Part shown: piece after piece, positions 15,906 through 50,273 of the stretch
Layout: the number at the start of each line of letters is the position of its first letter
Position numbering within the stretch: the first letter of the stretch is position 1
Position numbers and translations under genes: made by a program
Source of the DNA: Ottowia sp. SB7-C50
Lineage (GTDB): Bacteria > Pseudomonadota > Gammaproteobacteria > Burkholderiales > Burkholderiaceae_C
Direction of reading: 5' to 3'
Assembly: GCF_033110285.1 (NCBI RefSeq)
Contig: NZ_CP136995.1
Location: 2,728,001-2,792,000, forward strand
Length of the DNA stretch: 64,000 bases
Notes under the pieces: model-generated
Database searches by the model: none
The model's input: the letters and a program-made list of their open reading frames with translations, nothing else
Told to the model about the DNA's origin: nothing

Positions 15906-16485
15906 TCAGGCGCCGGGCGGCGGCGCGGGCGCATCGCCCCCATCGCCCGTGGCGGGCGGCACCACCAGCAACGCGCCCAGGGCCGGCGGCAGGTAGCTGC
16001 GCGTCAGCCAGTCGGGCAGCGGCGCCCAGTCGGCCCAGTCGGTGGTGCCCAGCACGATGTGCAGCCCGCGCAGCCAGCGGTGCAGGCCCACGCGGCTGAG
16101 CAACAACTGGCGCTGCCCCGCCGACGTGTGAAACGCCAGCACCGCCTGCACGCCGTCGTCGCGCAGATCGACCTGCGTGCACAGCACGGCGCTGGCCAGC
16201 TCCGGCGCGTCGCTGGCTTCGCGCCCCATCTGCAGCGCACGCGCCGGCTCGCCGGGCTGCGCACGGTTGAGCGACGCGTCGTGGTCGGCCGCGGCCCGCT
16301 CGGCGGGCGGGCGCGTGTCGGCGTCGTGCGCGCCGGGGGGGCGCTTTTTCCAGCGCGGTGGCCACCAGCTGCACGATGCCGCGCGCCATGCGCCGGGTGA
16401 TCCAGATGCGCTGCGGCCAAGCGGTGCAGCTGATCCACACGCGGTCTTCGCCCGCGTGATAGCCGAAAGTGGTCGAAGCGGTCAT
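15906..16485 (-). pseudogene. Hypothetical protein, frameshifted at a 7-base homopolymer
   Basis: Two adjoining frames make one protein of about 192 residues. The first part begins M-T-A-S-T-T-F-G-Y-H-A-G-E-D-R-V-W-I-S-C-T-A-W-P-Q-R-I and runs to A-L-E-K-A-P-P. At 16335-16341 the plus strand has seven G; removing one continues the frame as G-A-H-D-A-D-T-R-P-P and then M-G-R-E-A-S-D-A-P-E-L through a folded-looking domain (V-D-L-R-D-D-G-V-Q-A-V-L-A-F, W-L-R-G-L-H-I-V-L-G) to the stop. I do not recognise the family, and there is no signal peptide. It lies downstream of ettA's leader region in divergent orientation to the helicase. The shift matches three others in this window and may be an assembly error. 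Confidence 0.6.
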
Positions 16486-16880
16486 GGGGCCCATCAAAAA
16501 AAGGTGTCGGCGCCCTAAGAGTCTGCGCGGCAGAAGGCGTCGAAGCGAAACGCACGAAAAACGAGGACAGCGTGGTGATACCGACCAGCCCATAGCCAGG
16601 CTATGGGCGCCGGAGGTAGCGCCGCGATGGACCGTTTTCTCGCGCGTTGCAGCCGACGCATCTTCTGCCGCGCAGACTCCTAGCCGGCTGCGTGCGATAA
16701 TAGGCTTGCTTGCGGGCCACCAGTTTTCCGCAAGCCAGCCCTTCCGCTGGGGCGCCGCCGGCCACCCTTGGCCCACACGCCCACCCAAAGAAGAACCCGC
16801 TGCAGCCTTCAACTGGCCCGGCCCTTGCCGGATCAGGCCCGCAGCTCAGGCGCCGACGAGAGACCGGCGCATCCACTTTG
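16486..16880. other. Intergenic leader region of the RhlE-type helicase gene
   Basis: A 395-bp gap with no convincing gene. It contains an 8-bp hairpin GCCCATAG-CCAGG-CTATGGGC (16588-16608) and a candidate -10 box GATAAT at 16696-16701 with no clear -35. If that is used, the helicase mRNA would have a leader of about 170 bases, long enough for post-transcriptional control as known for some DEAD-box RNA helicase genes. No known riboswitch pattern was recognised. Confidence 0.4.
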
Positions 16881-18731
16881 ATGAACTTTGACCAACTGAA
16901 CCTGGCCCCCGCCATTCTGCGGGCTGTGCAAGAGCAGGGCTACACGACGCCCACCCCCATCCAGGCGCAAGCCATTCCCGTGGTGCTGGAAGGCCACGAC
17001 CTGCTGGCCGGCGCACAGACCGGCACCGGCAAGACGGCCGGCTTCACGCTGCCGATGCTGCAGCTGCTGTCGGGCCGGCCGGCGCGCCAGCCCGGCGCCA
17101 TCCGCGCGCTGGTGCTGACGCCCACGCGCGAGCTGGCGGCGCAGGTCGAGGAATCGATCCGCGTCTACGGCAAATACCTCGACCTGACGTCAACCGTGAT
17201 CTTCGGCGGCGTCGGCATGAACCCGCAGATCAACCGCATCGCGCGCGGCGTCGACATCCTGGTGGCCACGCCGGGCCGCCTGCTGGACCTGGAAGGCCAG
17301 AACCACATCGACCTGTCCAACGTCGAGATCCTGGTGCTGGACGAAGCCGACCGCATGCTGGACATGGGCTTCATCCACGACGTGAAGAAAGTGCTGGCCC
17401 TGCTGCCCAAGGACAAGCAGAGCCTGCTGTTCAGCGCCACCTTCAGCGACGAAATCCGCGAGCTGGCCAACGGCCTGCTCAAGTCGCCCAAGAGCGTGCA
17501 GGTCACGCCGCCCAACACCACGGTCGAGCGCATCGCGCAGGTGATCTACCCCGTGGGCCGCAACCGCAAGAAAGACGTGCTGGCGCACCTCATCGGCGAA
17601 AACGACTGGAGCCAGGTGCTGGTGTTCACCCGCACCAAGTTCGGCGCCAACAAGGTCGCCGACTTCCTGAACGACAAGGGCATCAAGTCCATGGCGCTGC
17701 ACGGCAACAAGAGCCAGAGCGCCCGCACCCAGGCACTGGCCGAGTTCAAGACCGGCGACCTGCGTGCGCTGGTTGCTACGGATATTGCAGCGCGCGGCAT
17801 CGACATCGACGAGCTGCCGCACGTCGTCAACTTCGACATTCCCAACGTGTCGGAAGACTACGTGCACCGCATCGGCCGCACCGGCCGCGCCGGCGCCAGC
17901 GGCGAAGCCGTCAGCCTGGTCTGCATGGACGAGGAAGGCTTCATGCATGAAATCGAGCGCTTCACCAAGCAGCAGATCCCGGTGCGCGTGCTGGACGGCT
18001 TCGGCCCCGAGGAGGGCGAGCGCGCCGAGCCCATCGCCATGGGCCGCCAGACGCTGTGGGGCGGCCTGGGCAAGCCGCCCAGCCGCGAAGTAATGGCCGC
18101 CGCGGCCCGCGCCGCGCGCCAGGAGATGATGCAGCGCATCCGTGAAAACAAGGCCGGCCAGGGCCCGCGCGGCGCAGGCCGTGGCCCGCAGCCGGCGCGC
18201 AAGCCCCAGCCGCAGCGTGCCGCTGCCGATGGCCTGCCGCCGGTGGACGGCGCCGTCGAACTGGGCGCCGACGGCCTGCCGATGAACGGCGGGGCCGCGC
18301 AAGGCGATCGCCCGTCCGGCGAACGCAACGGCCGCAACCGCAACCGCCGCCGTGGCCGCGGCAACGGCGCCGGCCCCAACGGACCGGGCGCCGGCCAGCA
18401 GCCGCGCCCGCAGGCATCGGCCCAGCCACGGCCCACGCGCGAATTCGGCTTTGACGACGAGGACGAGCGCGACATCGACCATCTGCCGCGCCACATCGAC
18501 CCGCTGCAGACCAACCTGCACGGCCGCCGCAACCGGCCGCAAGGCCCCAGCCACGGCGCCGTCGGCCAACCCGACCCGATGCGCACCAGCATCGACCTGA
18601 TGGGCAAGGGAGGCGGCGGTGGCGGACGCAATCGCAACCGCGGCGGTGGCGGTGGCGGCGGTGGCTACGGCGGCAACCGCAGTGGCGGTGGCGGCGGTGG
18701 CAACCGGCGCGGCGGCGGCTACGGCCGCTGA
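16881..18731 (+). CDS. rhlE: DEAD/DEAH-box ATP-dependent RNA helicase, RhlE type
   Basis: A 616-residue helicase. All core motifs are present: Q motif (F near 3, G-Y-T-T-P-T-P-I-Q), Walker A A-Q-T-G-T-G-K-T at 45-52, P-T-R-E-L-A near 83, T-P-G-R near 130, D-E-A-D at 154-157, S-A-T near 185, [10 protein letters not shown] near 298 and H-R-I-G-R-T-G-R near 330. From about residue 400 the chain is a low-complexity Arg/Gly/Pro/Asn region ending in long glycine runs ([10 protein letters not shown]), typical of RNA-binding disordered tails. It unwinds RNA in ribosome assembly or decay, often in the cold. The start M-N-F-D-Q-L is preferred over an ATG at 16710. The family call is firm; RhlE rather than another DEAD protein is likely. 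Confidence 0.9.
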
Positions 18732-18769
18732 TGCTGTCCTTCGAGCCTTGATCTGATCGCCGCGCAGCC

Positions 18770-19420
18770 GTGACGGGCAAGACCGTGCTGCTGGCCGGCG
18801 CGACCGGCCTGGTCGGCCGTGAGTTGCTGGCCGCCCTGCTGGCGGACCCGGCCGTCGCGGCCGTGCATGCACTGGGGCGCCGCGCGTTGGACGTGCAGCA
18901 CCCCAAGCTGACGTCGCACGTGGTGGATTTTGCGGCGCTGCCGTCCTTGCCCCGCATCGACGAAGCCTATGTCGCGCTCGGCACCACCATCAAGGTGGCG
19001 GGCAGCCAGGCTGCCTTCCGCGCCGTGGATCTGGATGCCGTCACCGCGGTGGCGCGCGCCGCTCAAAGCGCCGGCGCTACCAAATTAGGAATCGTCAGCG
19101 CCATGGGCGCCGACCCGTCGTCGCGCGTGTTCTACAACCGCGTCAAGGGCGAGATGGAGCAGAAGGTGCGTGCGCTGGGCATCGACACCACCGTGTTCGC
19201 GCGGCCCTCGCTGCTGGAAGGCGACCGCGCCTCGTTGCAGCAGCCCCGTCGCCCGGCCGAGCGCTGGCTGCAGGCGGCCATGCGGGCGCTGCGTCCCGTC
19301 ACGCCCGCCAACCTGCGCGCCATTGCCGCACGCGATGTGGCGGTGAGCTTGATCGAAGCCTTGCGCACGCGGGCGCCGGGCGCGCACGTGCTGCTGTCGG
19401 GCGCGCTGCAGCGCCGCTGA
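18770..19420 (+). CDS. Atypical short-chain dehydrogenase (NAD(P)-binding, YraR/TIP30-like)
   Basis: A 216-residue Rossmann protein. The nucleotide-binding motif is L-L-A-G-A-T-G-L-V-G-R-E-L-L at 7-20. The segment Y-V-A-L-G-T-T-I-K-V-A-G-S near 67-79 and the S-A-M-G-A-D near 110-115 with Y-N-R-V-K-G-E-M-E near 122-130 match the atypical SDR group that includes E. coli YraR and mammalian TIP30. The Y-x-x-x-K pair is present. The reaction is not known. It starts with a GTG 36 bp after the helicase stop, so it may be co-transcribed with it. The segment A-A-Q-S-A-G-A-T-K-L-G superficially resembles a repeat copy but aligns with the family. Confidence 0.8.
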   Translation: MTGKTVLLAGATGLVGRELLAALLADPAVAAVHALGRRALDVQHPKLTSHVVDFAALPSLPRIDEAYVALGTTIKVAGSQAAFRAVDLDAVTAVARAAQSAGATKLGIVSAMGADPSSRVFYNRVKGEMEQKVRALGIDTTVFARPSLLEGDRASLQQPRRPAERWLQAAMRALRPVTPANLRAIAARDVAVSLIEALRTRAPGAHVLLSGALQRR

Positions 19421-19441
19421 GCGGCCCCAGAAATCGCGTCG

Positions 19442-19840
19442 TCAGGCGCGCACGAACAGCGTCACCAGCGGCTCATCGCCCAGCAGGCGGCTGCGGTGGC
19501 CGTGCCGCGCGGCGTCGAAGGTCGCGCCCGCCGGCAGCGTGTCGTTGGAATAAAAGCCCTCCCCCGGCCCGAACACGCGCACGCTGTCGTCGCGCAGGCC
19601 GATTTCCATGCGCCCCTGCAGCACCAGCAGCCATTGCGGCGTGGTGGTGCAGTGAAAGTCGCTGGCAAAGCCCGGCGGGCTGCGCCGCATCTGCCAGCCG
19701 CCGGAAGGCGCCAGCGCCGACAGCCGCGTCATCGGCGTGCCTTCGGTCAAGGCCACCGGCCGGTCGCGAAAGCGCGCCACGCCATCGACGTCGGTGTACA
19801 GCTCAGGCAGGGTCAGCGCGGTGTCGGTCGAAGCAATCAT
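19442..19840 (-). CDS. Cupin domain-containing protein
   Basis: A 132-residue single-domain cupin. The pattern D-F-H-C-T-T-T-P-Q-W-L-L-V-L-Q-G-R-M-E-I-G-L near 60-80, then G-P-G-E-G-F-Y-S-N-D-T-L-P-A-G near 90-104, matches the two cupin motifs, with His and Glu as possible metal ligands. A role cannot be assigned. The ATG giving M-I-A-S-T-D-T-A-L is chosen because the frame beyond it (up to 20029) runs through intergenic and repeat DNA. It is convergent with the SDR-like gene and divergent from the next SDR gene. Confidence 0.75.
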   Translation of the reverse strand: MIASTDTALTLPELYTDVDGVARFRDRPVALTEGTPMTRLSALAPSGGWQMRRSPPGFASDFHCTTTPQWLLVLQGRMEIGLRDDSVRVFGPGEGFYSNDTLPAGATFDAARHGHRSRLLGDEPLVTLFVRA

Positions 19841-19970
19841 GGTGGCCGATGGAGGACGGAAGGCGCCGAGCGTAGCGCACCGCGCGCCCTGTGCGCCGCT
19901 CACCATGGCAGCGCATGGGCGGCAAGGGTGCGATGATGGTGGCTCTGCGTCTGTCTGCAGTGCGCCCATC

Positions 19971-20027
19971 GCTTCAATATTGATAGCTAAAGGCGCTGAT
20001 GCATAGAGCGCACCGACCGTTTTTGAC
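19971..20027 (+). repeat. Dispersed element, copy 6
   Basis: Forward copy: GCTTCAATATTGATAGCT, GCGCTGATGC and AGAGCGC, then CGTTTTTG. It forms the leader of the SDR gene at 20047, which has no clear Shine-Dalgarno sequence. Confidence 0.7.
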
Positions 20028-20046
20028 ATTAATTTTCTTTTGCCGA

Positions 20047-20829
20047 ATGAACGCCTCGCCCTCCCCCATCTCCTTCGGCCTGCAGGGCCGTGTCGTCATC
20101 GTCACCGGCGGCTCGCAGGGCATCGGTGAAGCCTGCGCACGCCGCTTTGCGCGCGAAGGCGCGCACGTGGTCATCGCCGACGTGGCCGACGAGCGCGGCC
20201 GCGCGCTGGCGGGCGAACTGGGCGCCCGCTACGTGCATTGCGACGTGGGCGACAAGGCGCAGGTCAACGCGCTGGTGGCCGACGCGCTGCAGGCCCATGG
20301 CCGCATCGACGTGCTGGTGAACAACGCGGGCATCTTCCGCGCGGCGGATTTCCTGGACGTGACCGAGGAAGACTTCGACGCCGTGCTGCGCGTCAACCTG
20401 AAGGGTGCCTTCCTGGTGGGCCAGGCGGTGGCGCGCGAAATGGCGCGCACGGGCGGCGGCAGCATCGTCAACATGAGCAGCGTGAACAGCGTGCTGGCCA
20501 TTCCCAACATCGCCAGCTACAACGTCAGCAAGGGCGGCATCAACCAGCTGACGCGCGCCATGGCGCTGGCCCTGGCGGACCAGGGCGTGCGCGTCAACGC
20601 CGTCGGTCCCGGCACCATCGGCACCGAACTGGCGGCCAAGGCCGTGCTGACCAGCGAGGAAGCCCGAAACAAGATCATGATGCGCACGCCCCTCAAGCGG
20701 CTGGGCGAGCCGAGCGAGATCGCCGACGTGGTCGGCTTTCTGGCCAGCGACGCGGCCAGCTACATCACGGGCGAGATCATCATGGTGGACGGCGGCCGCA
20801 TGGCGCTGAACTACACGGTGCCGGTGTAA
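20047..20829 (+). CDS. SDR family NAD(P)-dependent oxidoreductase
   Basis: A 260-residue classical short-chain dehydrogenase. The cofactor motif T-G-G-S-Q-G-I-G is near 19-26, N-N-A-G near 93-96, the catalytic Ser in N-M-S-S-V-N near 143, and Tyr158-x-x-x-Lys162 in S-Y-N-V-S-K. The late motif N-A-V-G-P-G-T-I and the C-terminal I-T-G-E-I-I-M-V-D-G-G are also present. It oxidises or reduces an alcohol/ketone pair; the substrate is not evident (relatives include glucose and 3-oxoacyl dehydrogenases). The start M-N-A-S-P-S is preferred over an ATG at 19999 that lies in the repeat-derived leader. It is followed on the same strand by phosphodiesterase, acyl ligase and thioesterase genes. Confidence 0.9.
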   Translation: MNASPSPISFGLQGRVVIVTGGSQGIGEACARRFAREGAHVVIADVADERGRALAGELGARYVHCDVGDKAQVNALVADALQAHGRIDVLVNNAGIFRAADFLDVTEEDFDAVLRVNLKGAFLVGQAVAREMARTGGGSIVNMSSVNSVLAIPNIASYNVSKGGINQLTRAMALALADQGVRVNAVGPGTIGTELAAKAVLTSEEARNKIMMRTPLKRLGEPSEIADVVGFLASDAASYITGEIIMVDGGRMALNYTVPV

Positions 20830-21001
20830 CGCCGGGCGCGCGGCGGCCAGGCGGGCGCCGCGCAACGCCCAAGGCGCGGCCTGGATGACACACCGACCGC
20901 CCGCGCCGCGCGGATTCTTCGATGCAGTGAGAACTTTCGCACACTGTGGGCGCGCACAGCGCGGCAGACGGTGTCGAGTCCGCCCACAATGGCGGCTTCT
21001 C

Positions 21002-21826
21002 ATGCTGATCGCCCACCTCACCGACCCGCACATCGGCCTGGACCCTGGCCCGCTGGCGGGCCGACTGGCACCGGAAGCGTCGCTGCGCCGCGCGCTGGCG
21101 CATGTGCGCAGTCTGGGCACGCCGCCCGATGTGCTGCTGCTGTCGGGCGATCTCACCGAATCGGGCCGCGAGGCAGACTACGGCACGCTGCGTGCGGCCT
21201 TCGACGAAGAACTGCCCGGCCATCAACAGGGCCTGCCCCGCGTGCTGGCCGTGGCCGGCAACCACGACCTGCCGGACCGCGCCCGCCATTGGCTGGGCGA
21301 CTGGATGCCGCTGCCGGCCGATGCGCCTGCCGGGGTGGCCTGCGTGCAGGCCGAGCGCGGCGGCGTGCACTTCATCGGGCTGGACACGGTGGTGCCCCGG
21401 CAGCCCCACGGCGAACTGTGCGCCGCCCAGCTGGACTGGCTGGCACGCACGCTGCGCGCGCTGGCGGGGCAGCCGGTGGTGCTGTTTTTGCACCACCCGC
21501 CGCTGACGGCCGGCATGGCGGCCATGGACGAATGCGGCCTGCGCACGGGTCGCGACGCGCTGGCGCGGCTGGTAGCCGAGCATGGCGGCGTGCTGCTGAT
21601 CGCGGGCGGGCATCTGCACCGGCCAATCCTGGGGGCGCTGGGCGGCGCGCCGGTGGTGGTGGCGCCGTCCACCTCGCACCAACTGGCGCTGGACCTGCGG
21701 CCGGGCGCGCCGCTGGCGCTGCAGCTGGAGCCGCCGATGATCGGCCTCTACCGCTGGACACCGCAGGACGGCCTGGCCTGCCACTTCAGTCACGTGCAGC
21801 CGTTCGACGGGCCGTATCCCATCTGA
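21002..21826 (+). CDS. Metallophosphoesterase (CpdA-like phosphodiesterase)
   Basis: A 274-residue calcineurin-like phosphoesterase. The metal ligands fall in the expected series: D8-x-H10 in L-T-D-P-H, G-D-L-T-E-S-G near 49, G-N-H-D at 86-89, H-H-P-P near 166 and G-H-L-H near 203. The form T-D-x-H...G-D...G-N-H-D...G-H-x-H is that of class III cyclic-nucleotide phosphodiesterases (CpdA) and related enzymes, which use two metals to hydrolyse phosphodiesters. The start M-L-I-A-H-L-T-D is preferred over an ATG at 20885. The gap to the acyl ligase is 86 bp. Whether cyclic AMP is the substrate cannot be read from sequence. Confidence 0.85.
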   Translation: MLIAHLTDPHIGLDPGPLAGRLAPEASLRRALAHVRSLGTPPDVLLLSGDLTESGREADYGTLRAAFDEELPGHQQGLPRVLAVAGNHDLPDRARHWLGDWMPLPADAPAGVACVQAERGGVHFIGLDTVVPRQPHGELCAAQLDWLARTLRALAGQPVVLFLHHPPLTAGMAAMDECGLRTGRDALARLVAEHGGVLLIAGGHLHRPILGALGGAPVVVAPSTSHQLALDLRPGAPLALQLEPPMIGLYRWTPQDGLACHFSHVQPFDGPYPI

Positions 21827-21912
21827 CGTCGCCGCGCGCAGCCCCGCGCGCACCCCCCGCAACCCGATTCCCGCAGAATCGACAGCGCCGCCACATCACA
21901 CAAGGACACCGC

Positions 21913-23445
21913 ATGAGCCTGGCCCACCTGCTGACGCGCCAAGCCCGCCAACGCCCGGACGCGCCCGCCATCCTGGAAGGCCGCCGCGTGCACGCCACCC
22001 ACGGCCAATGGGCTGCGCGCTGTGCGGGCATGGCGGCGCGCCTGCGCGACGCGGGGTTGCAGCCGGGTGACCGCGTTCTCATCTTCGCCCGCAACCACCC
22101 GCGCTATCTGGAGGCGCTGTGGGGCCTGTGGTGGGCCGGGGTGGTGGCCGTGCCCGTCAACGCCAAGCTGCACCCGCGCGAAGTGGAATGGATCGCCGCC
22201 GACTGCGGCGCGCGCTGGGCCTTCGTGACGGCCGACGTGGTGCCCGCACCGCTGGCGGGCATCGAGCGGCAGATCGACCTCGAATCGCACGAAGCAACCG
22301 CGCTGCTGGCCGAAGCACCCGACGCCTTCGCCGTGCCGGTGACCGAGCGGACCTTGAGCGACACCGCGTGGCTGTTTTACACCAGCGGCACCACCGGCCG
22401 CCCCAAGGGCGTGATGCTGACGCACCGCAACCTGATGACCATGGGCATGGGCTACCACGTGGACGTCGACGCCGTGTCGCGCGACGATGCCATCGTGTAC
22501 GCCGCGCCGATTTCGCACGGCGCGGGCATCTACGCCATACCGCACCTGATGGCGGGCGCGCGCCACGTGGTGCCCGCATCGGGCGGGGTCGATCCGGCCG
22601 AGCTGTTCGCGCTGGGGCGCAAGGTCGGCCCGCTGTCGCTGTTCGCGGCACCCACCATCGTCGGCCGGCTGGTCGACGAGGCAGAGCGGCAAGCCCTGTC
22701 GGCTGATGACTGCGCGCAGTCCTTCAAGACCATCGTGTACGGCGGCGCGCCGATGTATGTGGCCGACATCCAGCGCGCGCTGCGCGTGATGGGCCCGCGC
22801 TTCGTGCAGATCTACGGCCAGGGCGAAACGCCGATGGTCGGCACCTTCCTGTCGCGCGCCGACCTGGCCGATGCGGCGCACCCGCGCTACCTGCAGCGCA
22901 TCGCCAGCGTGGGCGTGGCGCAGACCCCCGTGCAAGTGCGCGTGACCGACGCGGAAGGACGGGACATGCCGCTGGGCGAGGTCGGCGAAATCGTCGTCAA
23001 GGGCGACAGCGTGATGGCCGGTTACTGGGGCAACCCCGACGCGACCGCGGCAGCGGTGAAGGACGGCTGGCTGTTCACCGGCGACATGGGCGCGCTGGAC
23101 GCCGACGGCTACCTGACGCTGAAGGACCGCAGCAAGGACCTCATCATCAGCGGTGGCAGCAACATCTACCCGCGCGAGGTGGAAGAAGCCCTGCTGCACG
23201 CCCCCGGCGTGGCCGAGGTGGCGGTGGTCGGCGAGCCCGACCCGCAGTGGGGCGAGAACGTGGTCGCCTTCGTCGTCGCGCAACCCGGTGCGGCGCTGAC
23301 CGAGGCCGCGCTGGATGCACACTGCCTGGCCCAGATCGCCCGTTTCAAGCGCCCCAAGCGCTATCTGTTTGTGAGCGCGCTGCCCAAGAACAACTACGGC
23401 AAGGTGCTGAAGACCGAGTTGCGCGCGCGACTGCACGCCGGCTGA
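21913..23445 (+). CDS. Acyl-CoA synthetase (AMP-binding, class I adenylate-forming)
   Basis: A 510-residue adenylate-forming enzyme. The P-loop Y-T-S-G-T-T-G-R-P-K-G-V begins at about residue 156. Later core motifs are I-Y-G-Q-G-E-T near 298, G-W-L-F-T-G-D near 383 and the hinge L-K-D-R-S-K-D-L-I-I-S-G-G-S-N-I-Y-P near 400-417. The catalytic lysine lies in L-P-K-N-N-Y-G-K-V near 492. It activates a carboxylic acid with ATP and transfers it to CoA; fatty or aromatic acids are both possible. The clear G-S-N-I-Y-P-R-E-V hinge favours a fatty-acid or related ligase. A thioesterase gene follows 51 bp later, suggesting a shared pathway acting on CoA esters. Confidence 0.9.
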   Translation: MSLAHLLTRQARQRPDAPAILEGRRVHATHGQWAARCAGMAARLRDAGLQPGDRVLIFARNHPRYLEALWGLWWAGVVAVPVNAKLHPREVEWIAADCGARWAFVTADVVPAPLAGIERQIDLESHEATALLAEAPDAFAVPVTERTLSDTAWLFYTSGTTGRPKGVMLTHRNLMTMGMGYHVDVDAVSRDDAIVYAAPISHGAGIYAIPHLMAGARHVVPASGGVDPAELFALGRKVGPLSLFAAPTIVGRLVDEAERQALSADDCAQSFKTIVYGGAPMYVADIQRALRVMGPRFVQIYGQGETPMVGTFLSRADLADAAHPRYLQRIASVGVAQTPVQVRVTDAEGRDMPLGEVGEIVVKGDSVMAGYWGNPDATAAAVKDGWLFTGDMGALDADGYLTLKDRSKDLIISGGSNIYPREVEEALLHAPGVAEVAVVGEPDPQWGENVVAFVVAQPGAALTEAALDAHCLAQIARFKRPKRYLFVSALPKNNYGKVLKTELRARLHAG

Positions 23446-36715: not shown

Positions 36716-37120
36716 ATGGCGTTCGAATTCCCGATCCGCATCTACTGGGAAGACACCGATGCCGGCGGCATCGTGTTCTACGCCAACTACCTGAAGTTCT
36801 TCGAGCGCGCGCGCACCGAATGGCTGCGCAGCTTAGGGCTAGACCAGCGCGCGCTGCGCGAGCAGACGGGCGGCATGTTCGTCGTCACCGAATCGGCCGT
36901 CAAATACCTGCGTCCGGCGCGGCTGGACGATGAACTTATCGTCACCGCGCGGCTCGAATCCTGCGGTCGTGCGGGCATCTCGATCCTGCAGCAGGCCTTT
37001 CTGAAAGGGGCCGATCGCACGCTGCTGTGCGACGGCCGCGTGCGCGCCGGCTGGGTGGATGCCACCGCCATGAAACCGGCGCGCATGCCCGCCGCCATCC
37101 TAGAAAAGTTGAATCCATGA
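36716..37120 (+). CDS. ybgC: Tol-Pal system-associated acyl-CoA thioesterase
   Basis: A 134-residue hotdog-fold thioesterase. The 4-hydroxybenzoyl-CoA thioesterase-type signature Y-W-E-D-T-D-A-G-G-I-V-F-Y-A-N-Y-L-K-F-F-E-R-A-R-T spans residues 10-34; the Asp in D-T-D-A-G-G is the catalytic acid in relatives. Y-L-R-P-A-R-L-D-D near 62-70 is the second landmark. It acts on short-chain or phospholipid-pathway acyl thioesters at the membrane. The position at the head of tolQ-tolR-tolA is the classic arrangement. Its TGA overlaps the tolQ ATG (ATGA at 37117-37120). Confidence 0.93.
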   Translation: MAFEFPIRIYWEDTDAGGIVFYANYLKFFERARTEWLRSLGLDQRALREQTGGMFVVTESAVKYLRPARLDDELIVTARLESCGRAGISILQQAFLKGADRTLLCDGRVRAGWVDATAMKPARMPAAILEKLNP

Positions 37121-37831
37121 ACCAGGACATGTCCATCATCCAGCTGGTGCTGCACGCCAGCTTCGTGGTCCAGATCGTCATGCTGATCCTGCTGGCCGGC
37201 TCCATCGCCAGCTGGGCGGCCATCTTCCGCAAGCTGCGGGCCATCAAGGGCATCCAGGCGCACAACGAGGAATTCGAGCGCGACTTCTGGTCCGGCACCA
37301 GCCTGAACGACCTGTACGCCACCGCGGCGCAGAACGCGCGCCACGGGGGGGCCCATGGAACGCATCTTCGCCAGCGGCATGCGCGAATATCAAAAGCTGC
37401 GCGAGCGCCGCATCGCCGACCCGGGCACCCTGCTGGACGGCGCGCGGCGTGCGATGCGGGCCAGCTTTCAGCGCGAGATGGACGCGGCCGAGGTCAACCT
37501 GTCGTTCCTGGCGTCGGTGGGCTCGGTCAGCCCTTACGTGGGCCTGTTCGGCACCGTGTGGGGCATCATGCACGCCTTCATCGGCCTGGGCGCGCTGCAG
37601 CAGGTGACGCTGGCCACCGTGGCCCCCGGCATTGCCGAGGCGCTGGTCGCCACCGCGCTGGGCCTGTTCGCCGCCATTCCTGCCGTGGTGGCCTACAACC
37701 GCTTCGCGCGCGACATCGACCGCATCGCGATCCAGCAGGAGACCTTCATCGAGGAGTTCTCCAACATCCTGCAGCGCAACCTGGGCGTGCAGGCCACCAC
37801 CCCGCATTCGGCCACCCCCACCGGGTACTGA
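37117..37831 (+). pseudogene. tolQ: TolQ, frameshifted at a 7-G run in this sequence
   Basis: TolQ is the inner-membrane stator protein that, with TolR, converts proton motive force into work on TolA for outer-membrane constriction. The first frame gives M-N-Q-D-M-S-I-I-Q-L-V-L-H-A-S-F, the first helix I-V-M-L-I-L-L-A-G-S-I-A-S-W-A-A-I-F and then A-Q-N-A-R-H-G-G. At 37345-37351 there are seven G. With six, the frame continues H-G-G-P-M-E-R-I-F-A-S-G-M-R-E-Y and the remaining helices (S-P-Y-V-G-L-F-G-T-V-W-G-I-M, A-L-V-A-T-A-L-G-L-F-A-A-I-P) to a normal C terminus. The intact product would have about 237 residues. TolQ loss is harmful to cell envelopes, so a sequencing or assembly error is the likelier reading. 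Confidence 0.88.
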
Positions 37832-39580: not shown

Positions 39581-42500
39581 TCACTCATAGACGATGGCCG
39601 CGCGCCCTTCATCGGCCTGCGCCATCCAGCTGGCCAGGGCCGCATCGCTGGGGAAGAACCGGGCTTCGTCGCCCAGTTGCAACTGGGCCATCACGCCGCC
39701 CTTTTCTGCCCGGCGCTCCACCAGCAGGCGCACCGGCAGGCCGCGCAGCAGGTCGCCGTGCTCGGTGTGTTCGACCTGCGGCGGGTATTCGGTCAGCAGT
39801 CGGCGCACGTCGGGCGACGGACCGTTCACCGCCACGCGCAGGAACTTGCCGAAGCGGCAGCGTGCGGTGGGCAAGTCCCAGATCTGCGTGATGTTGAGCT
39901 GCATGCCGCCCGAAAAGCGATCGGGCATGGCCTTGGCCATGACGACGATGAACTCGTCGTCCTTCAGCAGGTTGCGGTGCTGCTGGATCAGGCCTTCTTC
40001 GGCACGGGCGTCGATGCTGGCCGACTTGTCGTCCAGCTTGAACAGCGCCAGCCGGCCGCGCTGGCCGTTGATGACGCGGAAGTCGCCCACGATGCCCGCC
40101 AGCAGTTGCGGCTCGCGGCTGTCGACCAGGTCGTCGATGCGCCGCTTGACGAACTGGCGCACCTCGCGCTCGACTTCGTCAAACAAGTGACCCGACAGGT
40201 AGAAGCCGATGGCCGTCTTTTCAAGCGACAGGCGTTCCTTGACGCCCCACGGAATGACGTTGGGCAGCGCCGGTTCCTGCGCGCTGGAGCCATGGCCGTC
40301 GTCCATCAGGTCGAACAGGCCGCCCTGGTTGGCGTTGGCTTCGTTGGCCGCGGCGTAGTCGAAGGCCAGGTCCAGCGCGGCGGCCAGCGCCGCGCGGTTC
40401 ATGTGCAGCGCATCAAACGCGCCAGCGCGAATCAGCGCTTCGACCGTGCGCTTGTTCACGCGCGTGCGGTCGATGCGGCGGCAGAAGTCGAACAGGCTGG
40501 TGAACGGGCCACGCTCATCGCCCGCCGCACCGCCGCCGCGGCCTTCGCGCGCAGCGACGATGGCTTCGATGGCCTGCTGCCCCGTGCCCTTGATGGCGCC
40601 AAGGCCGTAGCGGATCAGCGTGTCGCTGACGGGCTCGAAGCGGTAGCCGCCGCGGTTGACGTCGGGCGGCTCGAACGTCATGCCTTCACGCAACGCGTCC
40701 TGGTGCAGCACCTTCAGCTTGTCGGTGTTGTCCATCTCCACCGTCATGTTGGCGCAGAAGAACTCGGCCGTGTAATGCACCTTCAGCCAGGCCGTGTGAT
40801 AGGCCAGCAGCGAATAGGCGGCGGCGTGCGACTTGTTGAAGCCGTAGCCGGCGAACTTCTCCATCAGGTCGAAGATTTCGTCGGCCTTGCCTTCGCTGAT
40901 GCCGTTTTTGGCCGCACCCTCGCGGAAGATCAGGCGGTGCTCGGCCATCTCCTCGGGCTTTTTCTTGCCCATGGCGCGGCGCAGCAGGTCGGCGCCCCCC
41001 AGGCTGTAGCCGCCCAGGATCTGCGCGGTCTGCATCACCTGTTCCTGATAGACCATGATGCCGTAGGTCTCGCTCAGCATGTCGGCCACCAGCGGGTGCG
41101 GGTATTCGACCGGCTCGCGCCCGTGCTTGCGCGCGACGAAGCTGGGAATCAGGTCCATCGGGCCGGGGCGGTACAGCGCGTTGAGGGCGATCAGGTCTTC
41201 GAGCCGCGTGGGGCGCGCGTCGCGCAGCATGCCCTGCATGCCGCGGCTTTCAAACTGGAACACGGCTTCGGTGCGGCCGTCCTGGAACAGCTTGTAGGTC
41301 TTGGCGTCGTCGAGCGGAATGTTCTCGAAGGCAAAGTCCGCCTGCCCCGGGTGGCGGCGCACGATCAGCTCCTTGGCGATTTCCAGGATGGTCAGCGTGG
41401 CCAGGCCCAGAAAGTCGAACTTGACCAGGCCCACCGCCTCGACGTCGTCCTTGTCGTACTGGCTGACGGCAGAGTCGCTGCCGGGCTGCTGGTACAGCGG
41501 GCAGAAGTCGGTCAGCTTGCCGGGCGCGATCAGCACGCCGCCGGCGTGCATGCCCACGTTGCGCGTCATGCCTTCGAGCTTCTTGGCCAGCTCGATCAGC
41601 GTCTTGACCTCGTCTTCCTTGGCGTAGCGCTCGGCCAGTTGCGGCTCGACCTTCATCGCGCCGTCGATGGTGATGTGCTGGCCCGGCTTGTTGGGGATGA
41701 GCTTGCTGATGCCGTCGCAGAACATGTAGCTCATGTCCAGCACGCGCCCCACATCGCGGATGGCGGCGCGCGCGGCCATGGTGCCGAAGGTGGCGATCTG
41801 GCTGACGGCGTTCTTGCCGTACTTGTCCTTCACGTAGTCGATGACGCGGTCGCGGTTGGCCTGGCAGAAGTCGATGTCGAAGTCGGGCATCGACACGCGC
41901 TCGGGGTTCAGGAAGCGCTCGAACAGCAGCTTGTATTCCAGCGGATCGAGATCGGTGATCTTCAGCGCATATGCCACCAGCGAGCCGGCGCCCGAGCCGC
42001 GCCCCGGCCCGACCGGGCAGCCGTTGTTCTTGGCCCAGTTGATGAAGTCGCCCACGATCAGGAAGTAGCCGGGAAAGCCCATCTTCAGGATGGTGGCGAT
42101 CTCGAACTCCAGCCGCTCCACGTATTCCGGGCGGCGTGCATCGCGCACCGCCGCGTCAGGAAACAGGTGCGCCAGGCGCTCTTCCAGCCCGTCCAGCGAC
42201 GCCTGGCGGAAATACGTGTCGATGGTGTGCCCCGCGGGCACCGGAAAGTCGGGCAGCTGCGGCTTGCCCAACACCAGCGTCAGGTTGCAGCGCCGCGCGA
42301 TCTCCACCGCGTTGGCCAGCGCCGAGGGCACGTCGGCAAACAGCGCCTGCATCTCGGCGCTGGACTTGAAATACTGCTCGGGCGTGAAGCGACGCACGCG
42401 CCGTGGGTTGCCCAGAATCTCGCCTTCGGCGATGCAGACGCGCGCCTCGTGCGCCTCATAGTCGTCGCGTGTGGCGAACTGCACCGGGTGCGTGGCGACG

Positions 42501-43477: not shown

Positions 43478-43510
43478 GACTACCGATGCGTCACCGATTG
43501 GCGCCGCGCC

Positions 43511-44005: not shown

Positions 44006-44707
44006 TTACGGCGCCAGATCGAACACCAGCACTTCGGCGTCCTGGCCCTGGCTGAGGCGGATGGCGCTTTCGTGCTCGATCAGCGCCGCATCGCCGCCGG
44101 CCAGGCGCAGTCCGTTGACGTCGAGCGAGCCGCGCACCAGATGCACGTAGGCCTTGCGCGCCGGGTCGATGGCCAGCGTGGCCGACTCGTCGCCGTCGAA
44201 CAGGCCCGCATACAGGGCCGCATCGGCGTGGATGCGCACGGCACCGGCGTCGGGCGAGCGAGCGGCCAGCAAGCGCAGGCGGCCCCGCTTGTCGGCGGTG
44301 GGGATGGTCTTCTGCTCGTAGCCGGGGGCCACGCCCTGCTGGTCGGGCAGGATCCAGATCTGCAAAAAGTGCGTGGTCTGCCCCACGGCGTGGTTGAACT
44401 CGCTGTGCGTGACGCCGGTGCCTGCGCTCATGCGCTGCACGTCGCCCGGCGGAATGCCCGTGACGTTGCCCATGCTGTCGCGGTGGGCCAGGTTGCCGCT
44501 CAGCACGTAGCTGATGATTTCCATGTCGCGGTGGCTGTGCGCGCCAAAGCCGGTGCCGGGCGCGATGCGGTCTTCGTTGATGACGCGCAGGTTGCCCCAG
44601 CCCATGTGCGCGGGGTCGTGGTAGTCGGCAAACGAAAAGCTGTGATGCGACTGCAGCCAGCCGTGGTCGGCAAAGCCGCGTTCGCCGGAAGGGCGCAAAG
44701 TGATCAT
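44006..44707 (-). CDS. Pirin family protein
   Basis: A 233-residue bicupin. The N-terminal cupin contains the metal-site pattern F-G-A-H-S-H-R-D-M-E-I-I-S-Y-V-L-S-G near 55-72 and G-T-G-V-T-H-S-E-F-N near 96-105; the His, His, His and Glu residues are the iron ligands of pirins. The start motif F-A-D-H-G-W-L-Q-S-H-H-S-F-S-F-A-D-Y near 12-29 is also typical (relatives include YhhW). Some pirins are quercetinases; others act on gene expression. The start M-I-T-L-R-P is preferred over an ATG at 44782 that crosses the regulatory gap. It is divergent from a LysR gene with a clear T-N11-A site between. Confidence 0.92.
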   Translation of the reverse strand: MITLRPSGERGFADHGWLQSHHSFSFADYHDPAHMGWGNLRVINEDRIAPGTGFGAHSHRDMEIISYVLSGNLAHRDSMGNVTGIPPGDVQRMSAGTGVTHSEFNHAVGQTTHFLQIWILPDQQGVAPGYEQKTIPTADKRGRLRLLAARSPDAGAVRIHADAALYAGLFDGDESATLAIDPARKAYVHLVRGSLDVNGLRLAGGDAALIEHESAIRLSQGQDAEVLVFDLAP

Positions 44708-44781
44708 GCGTGAACTCCTGTGATGACCCCGACTGTAGGCGCGGCTGGCGCTTCTGTGGGTGAATCGGGTTGATGGCATCA

Positions 44782-44796
44782 TTCAAAAACATTGAA
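44782..44796. promoter_or_regulatory. LysR-type operator between pirin and LysR genes
   Basis: TTCAA-AAACA-TTGAA is a perfect 5-bp inverted repeat with the T-N11-A form of LysR sites. It lies in the 109-bp divergent gap, 20 bp from the LysR start. Confidence 0.65.
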
Positions 44797-44816
44797 CTAA
44801 AACCACCCCCCCTGCC

Positions 44817-45752
44817 ATGGCCGAACCGACCGACGTGCTGACCCCGGACGCCTTTCGCATCCTCAACGCCATCGCGCAGGCGGGCAGCTTTGCCGGCGCC
44901 GCGCGGGCGCTGGGCCTGGTGCCCAGTGCGCTGACCTACCGCGTGCGGCAGATCGAGGAAGCGCTGGACGTGCTGCTGTTCGACCGCCGTTCGCGCCAGG
45001 CGCGCCCGACCGCCGCCGGCGCCGAGCTGCTGGCGCAGGCCGAACGCCTGCAGCAGGAAATGGACGCCGTGGTGCAGCGCGTCAAGCGCGTCGCCACCGG
45101 ATGGGAGCCCGAATTGACCGTCGCCGCCGACGGGCTGATTTCGCATTCGGCGCTGATGGACCTGTGCAGCGAATTCTTCGCGCAGGACCCGCCCACCCGC
45201 CTGCGGCTGCGCGAGGAAATTTTGAGCGGTACCGTGGGCGCGCTCACGTCGGGCAAGGCCGACCTGGCGCTGGGCGCGATCCTGGAGCCGTCGAGCGCCG
45301 CCAACCTGCGCGCCGCGCCGCTGGGCCAGGTGCGCTTCGTCTACGCCGTGGCGCCCACCCACCCGCTGGCGCGCGCACCCGAGCCGCTGCGCGATGCCGA
45401 ACTGCTGCGCCACCGCGGCATCGTGGTGGCGGATTCGGTGCAGACCGGCGCCACGCAATCGTTCGGCCTACTGGAAGGGCAGCAGACGCTCACGGTGTCC
45501 AGCCTGCGGGCCAAGCTGGACGCGCACCTGCGCGGCCTGGGCGCCGGCTTTCTGCCCGAGCCGATGGCGCGCCCGTGGCTCGCGTCCGGCCAACTGGTGG
45601 CGCGCCGGGTTGAGCGCAGCACCCGCATCGCGACGCTGAGCTATGCCTGGCGCGCCGACAGCGCACCCGGCAAGGCGCTGGCGTGGTGGCTGGACCGCCT
45701 GGCGCGCCCCATCACGCGGCGCGCGCTGCTGGAGGAGCACCCGAGCGTGTAG
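44817..45752 (+). CDS. LysR family transcriptional regulator, divergent from pirin
   Basis: A 311-residue LysR regulator. The DNA-binding domain shows A-F-R-I-L-N-A-I-A-Q-A-G-S-F-A-G-A-A-R-A near 11-30, P-S-A-L-T-Y-R-V-R-Q-I-E near 36-47 and L-F-D-R-R-S-R-Q-A-R-P-T-A-A-G near 54-68. The effector domain starts with L-T-V-A-A-D-G near 98. It is divergent from the pirin-DoxX pair with a perfect T-N11-A box between, so it probably controls those genes and itself; relatives next to pirin genes are common in Burkholderiales. A seven-C run (44806-44812) lies just before the start. The flavoprotein gene begins 9 bp after its stop. Confidence 0.92.
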   Translation: MAEPTDVLTPDAFRILNAIAQAGSFAGAARALGLVPSALTYRVRQIEEALDVLLFDRRSRQARPTAAGAELLAQAERLQQEMDAVVQRVKRVATGWEPELTVAADGLISHSALMDLCSEFFAQDPPTRLRLREEILSGTVGALTSGKADLALGAILEPSSAANLRAAPLGQVRFVYAVAPTHPLARAPEPLRDAELLRHRGIVVADSVQTGATQSFGLLEGQQTLTVSSLRAKLDAHLRGLGAGFLPEPMARPWLASGQLVARRVERSTRIATLSYAWRADSAPGKALAWWLDRLARPITRRALLEEHPSV

Positions 45753-45761
45753 AGTTGCCGC

Positions 45762-46833
45762 ATGAAACGCACCCAGCGCCCGCCCAGAACGCCCTCGTCC
45801 CGCCGCATCGCCGTCATCGGCGCAGGCATCGCCGGCCTGGCCTGCGCGCGCACGCTGCAGCGCGCCGGCTGCGACGTGCAGGTGTTCGAAGCCGCCGACG
45901 AACCCGGCGGCCGGCTGGCGTCGCAGGACTCGCCCTTTGGCACCTTCGACACCGGCGCACAGTACTTCACGGTGCGCGACGCCCGCTTCACCCAGGCGCT
46001 GCAGGCCACCGCCGCCGACGTGGTGCGCCCATGGAGCGCCAATGCCGTGCGCGTGCTGGACGAGCATGGCCGCGTCGTCGAAGCCGCACTGCCCGCGCGC
46101 GAAGCGCACTGGGTCGCGGTGCCGTCGATGAACGGGCTGCCCCAGCGCTGGGCCGCGCCTTTGCAGGCCGCCAGAGCCTTGCACCTGGGCACACAAGTCG
46201 AACGCATCGCGGTGCACCCGGCCGGCTGGCAGGTGCAGGCGCGTGACGCGTCCGACCCGCACCGCCCCCCCGGATGGCTTTGATGCCGTCTTGCTGGCCG
46301 TGCCCGCGTCTGGAGCGCGAGAGCTGCTATCGAAGGTGGAGCACCTGGCCCCGCTGGCGCAACGCGTGGAAGGCGTGGATGTGGCGCCCTGCTGGACGCT
46401 GATCACGGCCTTTCCGCACGCTGCGCAGCCCACGCTGAACACGCTGGGGCCGCAATGGAATGCGGCGCGCAGCACGCACCACCGCGTCGCCTGGCTGGCG
46501 CGCGAATCGTCCAAGCCCGGCCGCACGCTGATCGAGCGCTGGACCGTTCAGGCCAGCCCCGGCTGGTCGCGCGAGCACGAAGGCGACGACCCGGCGCGCG
46601 TCAGCGCCAAGCTGCTGAAGGCCTTCGGCGAAATCACCGGCATCCGTGCCACGCCCACCTTCGCCGAAGCCCGCCTGTGGCGGCAGGCACAGACGCTGGT
46701 GCCGCTGGGCGAGTCTTTCGTGTGGGACGCCGCGCTGGGCGTCGGCGTGTGTGGCGACTGGTGCATCGGCCACCGCGTGGAAGACGCCTTCGTCTCGGGG
46801 CTGGAGCTGGCGCTGCGCGTCATCGGCGATTGA
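45762..46833 (+). pseudogene. FAD-dependent amine oxidase-like protein (renalase-like), frameshifted at a 7-C run
   Basis: Two frames give one flavoprotein of about 356 residues. The N-terminal dinucleotide motif I-A-V-I-G-A-G-I-A-G-L-A-C-A near 12-25 is followed by V-F-E-A-A-D-E-P-G-G-R-L-A near 37-49 and D-T-G-A-Q-Y-F-T near 60-67, as in NAD(P)/FAD-dependent renalase-like oxidases. At 46265-46271 there are seven C. With six, the chain runs D-P-H-R-P-P-D-G-F-D-A-V-L-L-A-V-P-A and on to C-G-D-W-C-I-G-H-R-V-E-D-A-F near the end, the FAD-binding closing motif. The substrate is unknown. It lies 9 bp after the LysR gene and may be co-transcribed. The break may be an assembly error. Confidence 0.8.
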
Positions 46834-46875
46834 CCGCGCTGGCGGCGCCGCGTTGGCGCCGTTGACCGCTTTGCC

Positions 46876-47832
46876 ATGTACATCGGCAGATTCGCGCCCT
46901 CGCCCACCGGGCCCTTGCACGCCGGCTCGCTGGTCGCCGCGCTGGCCAGCTGGCTCGACGCCCGCGCGCACGGCGGCCGCTGGCTGGTGCGCATCGAAGA
47001 CGTGGACACGCCGCGTTGCGTGCCGGGGGCGGACCAGTTCATCCTCAGCCAACTGGCCGCCTGTGGCCTGATGCCGGACGAAGCGCCGGTGTGGCAGTCA
47101 CAGCGCACCACCCACTACCGCGCCGCGCTCGACCGACTCGTCGCCAGCGGCCATGCCTACCCCTGCGCCTGCTCGCGCAAGGACATCGAAGCCGCGCAGG
47201 CCGCGCGCGGCACCCTGCGCCAGCGCGGGGCCGAGCTGCCCTATCCCGGCACCTGCCGACCCGAGCACGGCGGGCTGAATGGCCGCGCCCCGCGCGCCTG
47301 GCGCCTGCATACCGGAAATTTTTCATTCAATGACGCGCCAGCGCATAGCCTGTCAGCGGAGTCAGCTACCAACTCAATAGCAAACGTCACTCCATTGCGC
47401 TGGCATGACCGCCGTCTGGGCACCCAGCACCAGCACGTGGAGCAAGCGGTCGGCGACTTCGTCCTGCTGCGCGCCGACGGCCTGTGGGCCTACCAGCTCG
47501 CCGTGGTCGTGGACGACGCCTTGCAGGGCATCACGCACGTCGTGCGCGGCGAAGACCTGGCCGACAACACGCCGCGCCAGATTTTGCTGCAGCGCGCGTT
47601 GGCTGTGCCTACGCCGCGCTACCTGCACACCCCGCTGGTGCTGGCGAAAGACGGACAGAAGCTGAGCAAACAGAATGGAGCCCAGGCGCTGGATGTGAGC
47701 CAGCCGCTCGTCGCCCTCACCCACGCGGCGCAAACGCTCGGCCTGTCTGCGCCACCGGCAGGCACCGTCGGCCTGGCGTTGGCTGCTTGGCGTGACGAAT
47801 GGGCGCGCCGGTGGGCGGCCGGGTCCGGCTGA
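46876..47832 (+). CDS. gluQ: Glutamyl-Q tRNA(Asp) synthetase
   Basis: A 318-residue protein resembling the catalytic core of glutamyl-tRNA synthetase without an anticodon-binding domain. It has [14 protein letters not shown] at 5-18 (HIGH region), the zinc-binding cysteines in C-A-C-S-R-K-D near 97-103 with Y-P-G-T-C near 124-128, R-G-E-D-L near 224-228, and K-L-S-K-Q near 259-263 (KMSKS). It attaches glutamate to the queuosine base of tRNA(Asp). Residues near 148-170 ([16 protein letters not shown]) are encoded by an in-frame dispersed repeat, inserted after the R-L-H-T-G strand where relatives have a short loop. The frame is kept, so the enzyme may still work. Confidence 0.9.
47316..47384 (-). 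repeat. Dispersed element, copy 14, inside gluQ
   Basis: Reverse copy within coding DNA: GAAATTTTTCATTCAATGAC, GCGCCAGCGC, CAGCGGAGTC, then AGCTACCAACTCAATAGC. It is in frame without a stop and gives the insert described for gluQ. Confidence 0.75.
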
Positions 47833-47898
47833 GCGTGGCAGCCGGTGCCAGCATGGCCCGGGGGCCGATCACACGCGTTGCTTGAACGAACAGCCAAC

Positions 47899-47930
47899 AA
47901 AAAACCCGACACGAAATCACTCGTGTCGGG
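47899..47930 (-). terminator. Terminator of tRNA-Val
   Basis: A perfect 10-bp stem CCCGACACGA-AATCAC-TCGTGTCGGG (47905-47930) with six A to the left, giving a T-run on the minus strand, 9 bp after the tRNA 3' end. GluQ converges from the other side. Confidence 0.9.
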
Positions 47931-47939
47931 CTTGATGAT

Positions 47940-48016
47940 TGGTAGGCGCGATTGGACTCGAACCAACGACCCCCACCATGTCAAGGTGGTGCTCTAACCA
48001 GCTGAGCTACGCGCCT
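47940..48016 (-). tRNA. tRNA-Val (anticodon GAC)
   Basis: A 77-nt cloverleaf on the minus strand. The acceptor stem AGGCGCG pairs with CGCGCCT, the D arm is GCTCAGCTGGTTAGAGC, and the anticodon stem CCACC/GGTGG encloses the loop TTGACAT with anticodon GAC, reading valine GUC (and GUU) codons. The T arm is GTTGG-TTCGAGT-CCAAT and the 3' CCA is encoded in the DNA. Its own promoter and terminator flank it. Confidence 0.97.
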
Positions 48017-48036
48017 GAAATCGATTCGAACTTCGA

Positions 48037-48045
48037 ATTATAGCA
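48037..48045 (-). promoter_or_regulatory. Extended -10 promoter of tRNA-Val with adjoining palindrome
   Basis: The minus strand reads TGCTATAAT (48045-48037), a consensus extended -10 element, about 20 bases before the mature tRNA. No good -35 is seen. A perfect palindrome ATTCGAA-C-TTCGAAT (48024-48038) overlaps the edge of the -10 and the start site. Confidence 0.65.
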
Positions 48046-48058
48046 CCGCGCCAAGCGT

Positions 48059-50273
48059 TTAGCGTCGCCGGGCTGCGCGGACGCCTGTCACGTCCTGGAC
48101 TTGGCTCAGCACATGGGCAAGGCGCTGCGTGTCGCTGACTTCGACGGTGAAGGTCATCCACGCCCATCCCTTGACGGACTGGGTCTGCACGCCGATGACG
48201 TTCATCTTCTCGCGCGCGAATACGTCCGAGATATCGCGCAGCAGGCCCTGGCGGTCAAGCGCCTCCACAGCCACATCGACGGGGTAGGCCGGCGCCTTGC
48301 CGGTCGCCGGCGTGCCCCAGCCGACCTCGATCACCCGTTCGGGCTCGCGTGCCTGCAGGTCGCGAAAGCTCGCGCAGTCGCGCCGGTGCACGCTGACGCC
48401 GCGTCCGCGCGTGACGTAGCCGGCGATGTCGTCGGGCGGCGCGGGCTTGCAGCAGCGCGCGGGTTGGGTCAACAGCGAATCGAGCCCCACCACCAGCACG
48501 CCGCCGCGACCGCCGTGGTTCGGCGTGGGCTTGCGCAGAAACGCCTGTTCGTCGGCGGCGGGCGTGGGCGCCGGGGGGGCGCAGCACGACTTCGATGGCG
48601 TGCATCGACAGTTCGTCCTTACCCACCGTTTCGAACAGCGCATCGGGTGTCTTGAAGCCCAGCTCTGCCGCCAGGTGTTCCAGCGACAGCGCGGTACGGC
48701 CCTCGCGCTGCAGCAGCTTTTCCACCATTTCACGGCCGCGCGCAATCGTCTCGCGGGTGTGCTGCGCGTTGAACCACGCGCGCACCTTGCTCTTGGCGCG
48801 ATTCGACGCCAGGAAGTGCAGGTCCGGATTCAGCCAGTCGCGCGACGGCCCGCCTTCCTTGGCCGTGATGACCTCCACCGTCTGGCCGTTTTTCAGCGGC
48901 GTGTGCAGCGGCACCATGGCGCCATCGACGCGCGCGCCACGGCAGCGGTGACCCAGTTCGGTGTGCAAGGTGTAGGCAAAGTCGACCGCCGTCGCGCCGG
49001 CCGGCAACTCCACGATGGCAGCGTCCGGCGTCAGCACGTAGATGCGGTCGTCAAACAGCCCGTACTGCGGCGCAGCGCCCGACAGGTCGCGTTCCCACGC
49101 CAGCAACTGGCGCAGCACCGCAATCTTGGCGTCGTAGTCGCTCGCGGCGCTGACGCCGGCGTATCCCTGCGTGCCCGCCTCCTTGTACGCCCAGTGCGCC
49201 GCGACGCCGTGCTCGGCATGTTCGTGCATCTGCGTGGTGCGGATCTGGATTTCCCACGGCCGGCCTTCGGCGTCGCGCACCACGGTGTGCAGCGACTGGT
49301 AGCCGTTGGGCTTGGGCCGCGCGATGTAGTCGTCGAATTCTTCCGGCACCGGCGTGAAATGCTGGTGCACCCAGGCCAATGCGGTGTAGCACTCCACCAC
49401 CGACGAGACCAGGATGCGCAGGGCCCGCACATCGAACACGCGATCAAAATCCAGCCCCTTGCCGCGCATCTTGCGCACGATGCTGCTGATGTGCTTGGGC
49501 CGGCCCGTCACACTGGCCTGGATGCCTTGCGCCCGCAGGTCGCGTTCGATCTGCGAGCGCCGCGCCTCCAGCGTCTGTTCACGCTCGACGCGTTTTTCAT
49601 CGAGCAGTGACGCCACCAGCCGGTAGGTGTCGGGCTCCTGGAAGCGGAACACCAGGTCTTCCATCTCCCACTTGATCTGCCAGATGCCCAGACGGTTGGC
49701 CAGCGGGGCAAAGACCTCATGCGACTCGCGCAGCAGCGTGGGCGACGGCGGTTTGCGCGCCGCGGCGCACCAGCGCAGCGTCTGCAGGCGCGACGCCAGG
49801 CGCAGCAGCACCACGCGCAGGTCGCGGCTGAAAGCCAGCAGCATCTTGCGCACGAATTCGGTCTGCTGGCTGGCCTGGTCGGAATCGCCCGACAGGTCCT
49901 GCCGGCTGGCGCGCGAGCGCTGCTGCACGCGCTCCAGCTTGGACGTCTCGATGGCGAGCCGCGCAAAGCCTTCGCCGAAGGCCTTGCCGATCACCTCGTC
50001 CGGCCGGTTGAGCTGCGCGCTGGCGTAGCTGAGGTACACCGCCGCCTGGATTTCGTCGGAGCCGCCGATGCCCGCCAGAATGTCGGCGGTGTGGTCCGCA
50101 TGGGCCAGCACATTCTCGCCGGACGACGTGACTTCGCCCGCCAGCAAGGGCTCGGCAAAGGCCCGCGCGCGGGCGCGCATTTCAGCAGTGCCGGCCACAC
50201 CGCCCCCGGTGGCGATCACCACGTCGGCGACCCCCGCACGGGTCGGTTGGGGCGGCAGCGCCAATGTCTTCAT
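48059..50273 (-). pseudogene. relA: RelA-type (p)ppGpp synthetase, frameshifted at a 7-G run in this sequence
   Basis: The stringent-response enzyme that makes (p)ppGpp at stalled ribosomes. The N-terminal HD-like domain is degenerate (H-A-D-H-T-A-D-I-L-A near 60), as in synthetase-only RelA. The synthetase domain has the E-x-D-D form E-F-D-D-Y-I-A-R-P-K-P-N-G-Y-Q-S-L-H near 320, marking RelA rather than SpoT. A TGS domain (D-R-I-Y-V-L-T-P near 418), a helical region and a C-terminal ACT domain follow. At 48573-48579 the plus strand has seven G; removing one joins V-V-L-R-P-P to A-P-T-P-A-A-D-E-Q-A-F and restores a protein of about 737 residues. As written, the zinc-finger/ACT end would be lost. 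The ATG overlaps the stop of the upstream hydrolase. Confidence 0.9.

Follow-up and report, generated by a model that had tools for sequence, protein, structure and literature searches.

In the assembly of Ottowia sp. SB7-C50, G/C homopolymers have most likely been written systematically too long in the consensus sequence, a reading to which we give a probability of about 0.92. According to this reading, true six-base runs would mostly have been written as seven, with some five-base runs written as six, some seven-base runs as eight and one apparent case of six written as eight. Roughly 100 genes, by extrapolation, would be falsely split over the genome in the same manner as tolQ, relA, an amine oxidase gene and a gene for a hypothetical protein. 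The breaks lie at G/C runs with a recurrent offset, their frequency depends on the length and the base of the run, they are spread genome-wide, and near-identical intact proteins are found elsewhere for genes that they interrupt. The pattern at G/C runs is itself real, strong and genome-wide, and it is most likely a consensus artefact, not biology; its cause is probably to be sought in base calling or consensus building and not in the DNA of the cell.

Frame breaks at seven-base G/C runs in the window

The window, meaning the whole stretch of 64 kb that was analysed, is part of a single contig of 3,611,735 bases with a completeness of 99.99%. It contains six seven-base G/C runs and none that is longer. 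The preliminary description had reported that four genes change frame exactly at such runs and that each of them carries one base too many, and both statements hold. The runs concerned, given on the plus strand, are a G7 at 16335-16341 in the hypothetical gene (C7 in the mRNA), a G7 at 37345-37351 in tolQ, a C7 at 46265-46271 in the amine oxidase gene and a G7 at 48573-48579 in relA (C7 in the mRNA), each with one base extra. Three-frame translation showed the protein switching to another frame at each of the four, in agreement with a three-periodic frame HMM, with the window as its sole training sequence and without homology, whose coding segments ended or were interrupted at the 16335, 37345, 46265 and 48573 runs. 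When direct shifts were allowed in the HMM, breaks were placed at all four runs, and no other break was listed in the window beyond those flagged as gene junctions or bordered by short segments; 24 breaks with a coding segment of less than 75 bases on one side, together with one odd case, were dropped in this procedure. The offset was d=1 at all four runs, corresponding to a single surplus base (equivalent, modulo 3, to two missing bases), and coding statistics were retained by the HMM on both sides of each break. If positions are assumed to be uniform, the chance that four random breaks would each lie within 10 nt of one of the six runs is about 4e-11.

Four of the five seven-base runs placed in coding sequence in the window are thus at frame breaks. 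The fifth, a C7 at 53416-53422 (plus strand), lies at the 5' end of risS (53331-54893) without breaking its frame. It sits just before an ATG, which may be the start of the gene instead of 53331, in which case translation would start after the run. The sixth run, a C7 at 44806-44812 (plus strand), is non-coding, lies ahead of a LysR-type gene (44817-45752) and is uninformative. Among the six-base runs of the window, those at 57357 and 60700, previously described as unbroken, were indeed in frame, as was the one at 40995, while the run at 21853 is located at a gene junction.

Intact counterparts of the split genes

Family models matched on separate pieces gave relA, tolQ and the amine oxidase gene their names. 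For tolQ (37117-37831, plus strand, two frames), the start was inferred from the alignment to an intact TolQ of 237 aa (P0122), which is 100% identical to the window pieces over 78 and 161 aa on either side of the break; the second piece matches TIGR02796 below the curated cut-off, as expected for a piece. The relA gene (48059-50273, minus strand, two frames), whose start was taken from the alignment to an intact RelA of 737 aa (P0001) and whose end from the open reading frame 48059-48745, shows 100% identity to this protein over 567 aa and 99.4% over 165 aa, the last 7 residues being left out. The largest contigs in the clusters of P0001 and P0122 are of 53,833 and 96,020 bases respectively, and consequently neither protein comes from the 3.6-Mb contig itself; either may stem from a different strain. 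The FAD-dependent amine oxidase gene (45762-46833, plus strand, two frames), with PF01593 on its first piece, is matched on both pieces by an intact protein of 356 aa (P0241), with 98% identity over the first 170 aa and, on the far side, either 93% over 206 aa, some of them out-of-frame residues, or 98% over the 186 residues searched. The hypothetical gene (15906-16485, minus strand) is divided over two frames by translation, with an HMM gap at 16333-16338 and an ATG start in the first frame. Its pieces have no Pfam match when scanned, and both match one and the same frame of a locus in another genome (L234 of G007).

The relatives of relA were examined in the best 80 loci, whose identity is 87% at most; the nearest of them include several Ottowia, which places the window near this genus of the Comamonadaceae. 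The gene is in a single frame in 79 of these 80, the exception (L003) belonging to an assembly of opposite bias described below. At the site of the break, a run of six or more bases is present in 2 of 79 relatives and the run is of five bases or less in the other 77.

Breaks at homopolymers across the genome

For a genome-wide count, 20 evenly spaced tiles of 20 kb (400 kb, the window left out) were analysed with an HMM of the same kind trained on the window and tiles together, the final counts being made with 30-base flanks. The tiles contain 87 G/C runs of at least six bases, 28 of which were placed in a coding frame; the other 59 were left aside, 56 being non-coding or having flanks on two strands and 3 lying at tile ends. 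The association seen in the window recurs in this tally of runs against frameshifts, as 12 of the 28 coding runs are at frame breaks. By comparison, breaks were found at 0 of 24 coding A/T runs of at least six bases (one junction set aside; p 1.6e-4 vs G/C) and at 15 of 1368 G/C runs of 4-5 bases (Fisher p 4e-15 vs runs of at least six).

The break rate at coding runs in the tiles climbs with the observed length of the G/C run, from 5/194 at five bases, where three of the five broken runs are one base too long, to 5/20 at six, 4/5 at seven and 3/3 at eight or more. In eleven of the 12 breaks at runs of at least six bases, the offset is that of a single added base. The remaining one, at a C8 in ilvB, has an offset meaning two extra bases or one lost; the conserved protein around the run fits a run of six bases, so that two extra bases are probable here. 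With ilvB counted in this way, extra bases would be present, by true run length, in 5/194 five-base, 5/20 six-base and 2/3 seven-base runs. Extrapolated from 12 breaks per 400 kb, the genome would contain about 108.

Gene junctions were set aside by a start/stop rule that is imperfect, given that it flagged the amine oxidase gene as a junction where homology indicates one gene, and under which flank width affects the counts. With 45-base flanks in the window and tiles together, 13 G/C runs of at least six bases were at breaks, 19 kept the frame and 6 were flagged as junctions, the corresponding figures for A/T runs being 0, 23 and 4; the picture is the same.

Genes at breaks beyond the window

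The genes located at breaks have unrelated functions and are spread across the genome. In six of them, pstS, a PhnW-like aminotransferase gene, ilvB, pcnB, modB and a carboxyltransferase subunit gene, the break is flanked by matches to one family model, whose profile positions follow on from one side to the other; looser two-sided matches were obtained for pitA and a type II secretion F protein gene. The family match in fmt (L092) continues past the break, but with another offset and with an insert near the break. On one side of the break only, matches were obtained for phoR, gshA and Ku, and for birA and tatB the match lies ahead of the break, the short part of tatB after it having no Pfam match. 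Further breaks occur at L121:18314 and L127:19407.

In addition to the tiles, loci centred on runs were analysed, comprising the plus-strand G7 runs among the matches listed (to 1.32 Mb) and the other G/C runs of at least seven bases therein; runs within tiles or less than 200 bases from a locus end were dropped. For 62 of the resulting 78 runs there was no placement in one coding strand, and the remainder showed the one-extra offset in 12 cases, another offset in 2 and an unbroken frame in 2. Of the 2 with another offset, L084 resembles a genuine gene junction where rsmG ends, and fmt (L092) is ambiguous on account of the insert beside its break.

Several side observations were made in these loci and tiles. 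Two G7 runs 614 bases apart (L116:5531 and L116:6145) are each at a break with the one-extra offset, inside or adjoining a single type II secretion F/PilC gene. Runs of 9-11 G or C, exceeding any in the window, are present in sequence that the HMM calls non-coding (L116:9211, L118:18679, L121:1916 and L126:777), their true length being uncertain given the overcall bias. In L196 (about 1501-2100), a crotonase frame passes into the stretch LTPSPLWGEGRGE...PHPNPLPQAGE, and the insert near the break of fmt (L092, about 1450-1560) is short; judged by eye, both may be dispersed repeats within genes.

Run-length spectrum compared with other genomes

This genome has 250 G/C runs of exactly seven bases and 543 of exactly six, a ratio of 0.46, while the same ratio ranges from 0.145 to 0.279 in 11 other genomes (pooled 1044/5711); a thirteenth genome, G003, with 0 seven-base and 38 six-base runs, was left out of this range. 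The excess of seven-base runs, coding and non-coding together, amounts to 127 against the pooled ratio and to 77 against the highest single genome, values close to the tile-based estimate of 108 breaks. When overlapping seven-base matches per Mb were compared in 21 genomes, G008 was higher (583 in 3.8 Mb) than this genome (428 in 3.6 Mb). The 583 overlapping matches of G008 are accompanied by 162 exact seven-base runs, implying that G008 has unusually many long G/C runs.

The genome G003, of the same genus, was sampled over 200 kb (L133-L142) and has no G/C run of at least six bases there, while its breaks at runs of 4-5 bases have the lost-base offset in 40 cases vs 6. Its relA (L003) is also split, near the site of the relA break in the window. 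G003 displays the opposite bias, which shows that homopolymer bias specific to one assembly exists among the public genomes of this genus. For G005, the 200 kb sampled contained 17 placed coding G/C runs of at least six bases, of which 2 were at breaks.

Alternative explanations

Two causes had been proposed in the preliminary description, namely overcalling of runs by the read technology and slippage due to a mismatch-repair defect. The former is well supported, the changes among the tile runs of at least six bases being confined to G/C, and the latter found no support. In a strain with defective mismatch repair, real +1 slippage events would have built up at G/C runs, and the increase of breaks with run length does resemble the indel rates in mutS-deleted Vibrio, as given in the excerpted text of PMC5854121. 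In mismatch-repair-deficient Pseudomonas fluorescens, moreover, a bias towards insertions, the majority of indels lying in simple repeats, is described in the available part of PMC4316635, so the direction of the change alone cannot dismiss a mutator. Against it, the part of PMC5854121 available on mutS-deleted Vibrio describes slightly more deletions than insertions in one species, the other having no bias that is significant. Both mutS and mutL were found here and are open, mutS through its C-terminus and mutL over 604 aa (translations judged by eye), and G/C runs of at least six bases are absent from both regions. Among G/C runs of this length in the genome parts analysed, none showed a base loss that is certain, and the coding A/T runs of at least six bases in the tiles were broken in 0 of 24 cases. 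Some 100 broken genes (extrapolated), including ilvB, pstS, tolQ, relA and probably tatB and birA, would also be a heavy load for a living strain. Unchanged A/T runs together with intact mutS and mutL are what a mutator does not explain; loss of mismatch repair as the main cause was rejected on the reading of mutS and mutL, and we regard a mutator strain as unlikely. A cell whose DNA carries the +1 G/C tracts in about 100 genes and tolerates them or reads them through, by an unrecognised slippage that is G/C-specific and insertion-only or through correction of the frame during transcription or translation, appears very unlikely.

Four-base-reading prolyl and glycyl tRNAs act at C or G runs. 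The extra bases could accordingly be real, with the proteins restored by suppressor tRNAs or by slippage of RNA polymerase or the ribosome at these runs; the break sites are C or G runs suited to such tRNAs, and coding statistics persist on both sides of them. However, ARAGORN assigned ordinary three-base anticodons (prolyl tgg, cgg and ggg; glycyl tcc, gcc and ccc) to the 41 tRNA genes matched, its calls being read for the anticodon and not for loop sizes gene by gene. No unusual anticodon, and no enlarged one in tRNA-Pro or tRNA-Gly, was among its calls on the loci of these 41 matches, and suppressor tRNAs were rejected on this ground. The long run at the relA site is, furthermore, mostly absent from relatives (five bases or less in 77 of 79), and programmed frameshifting conserved in orthologues was not seen in relA, a single-frame gene in 79 of its 80 best relatives. 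Restoration of the proteins during decoding is extremely improbable. The position of seven-base G/C tracts at frame breaks would also be expected of phase-variable contingency tracts that happen to be switched off, but the tract at the relA site, the one site compared, is kept at six or more bases in just 2 of 79 relatives, and the targets include the housekeeping genes relA, ilvB, pcnB and tolQ. Phase variation was rejected on the non-conservation of the tract at the relA site, and its probability is close to negligible. Overlong G/C runs in the consensus have a counterpoint of their own in the seven-base runs that are in frame, at 53416 in the window and at L121:553.

Consequences for the use of this assembly

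The approximately 100 false gene breaks that are extrapolated would be invisible to the completeness score of 99.99%, and it would be wrong to claim from this assembly that genes such as tolQ, relA, ilvB or pstS have been lost. The pattern is no dependable evidence of gene loss in this organism. When pseudogenes or homopolymers are compared across such genomes, the result may mislead unless the 7:6 ratio of G/C runs is checked first. Such comparisons are risky without this check since G003 errs in the opposite way.

Comparison with known error profiles and mutators

The excerpts available of PMC9262707 state that homopolymer indels, which often cause frameshifts, persist in consensus sequences built from long reads, and that with newer pores the consensus is correct for most homopolymers of less than 11 bases. 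In those of PMC12007338, long-read errors are mostly deletions at homopolymers, and insertions have no homopolymer preference. Judged by these two profiles, an insertion bias at G/C runs is not the usual one, which counts against overcalling, and the portions considered of PMC9262707, PMC12007338 and PMC3711429 hold no description of a G/C overcall profile. The breaks reported here are like the long-read homopolymer errors of the first two sources, as far as their excerpts go, in being small, centred on homopolymers and in splitting genes across a one-contig genome, and unlike them in that the changes at G/C runs of at least six bases fit insertions.

With mismatch-repair mutators, as represented in the accessible sections of PMC4316635 and PMC5854121, they share single-base homopolymer indels that rise with run length and, for one strain, the insertion bias; they differ in that mutS and mutL are open and A/T runs untouched. 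Singleton frame transitions confirmed by BLAST in the GeneTack survey are expected to be sequencing errors, as stated in the excerpt of PMC3711429. The present breaks are similar to those singletons, in what that excerpt gives of them, having been found by frame statistics, confirmed by homology and being absent in relatives. They differ from them, on the same partial view of the survey, in being confined to one sequence class and one offset.
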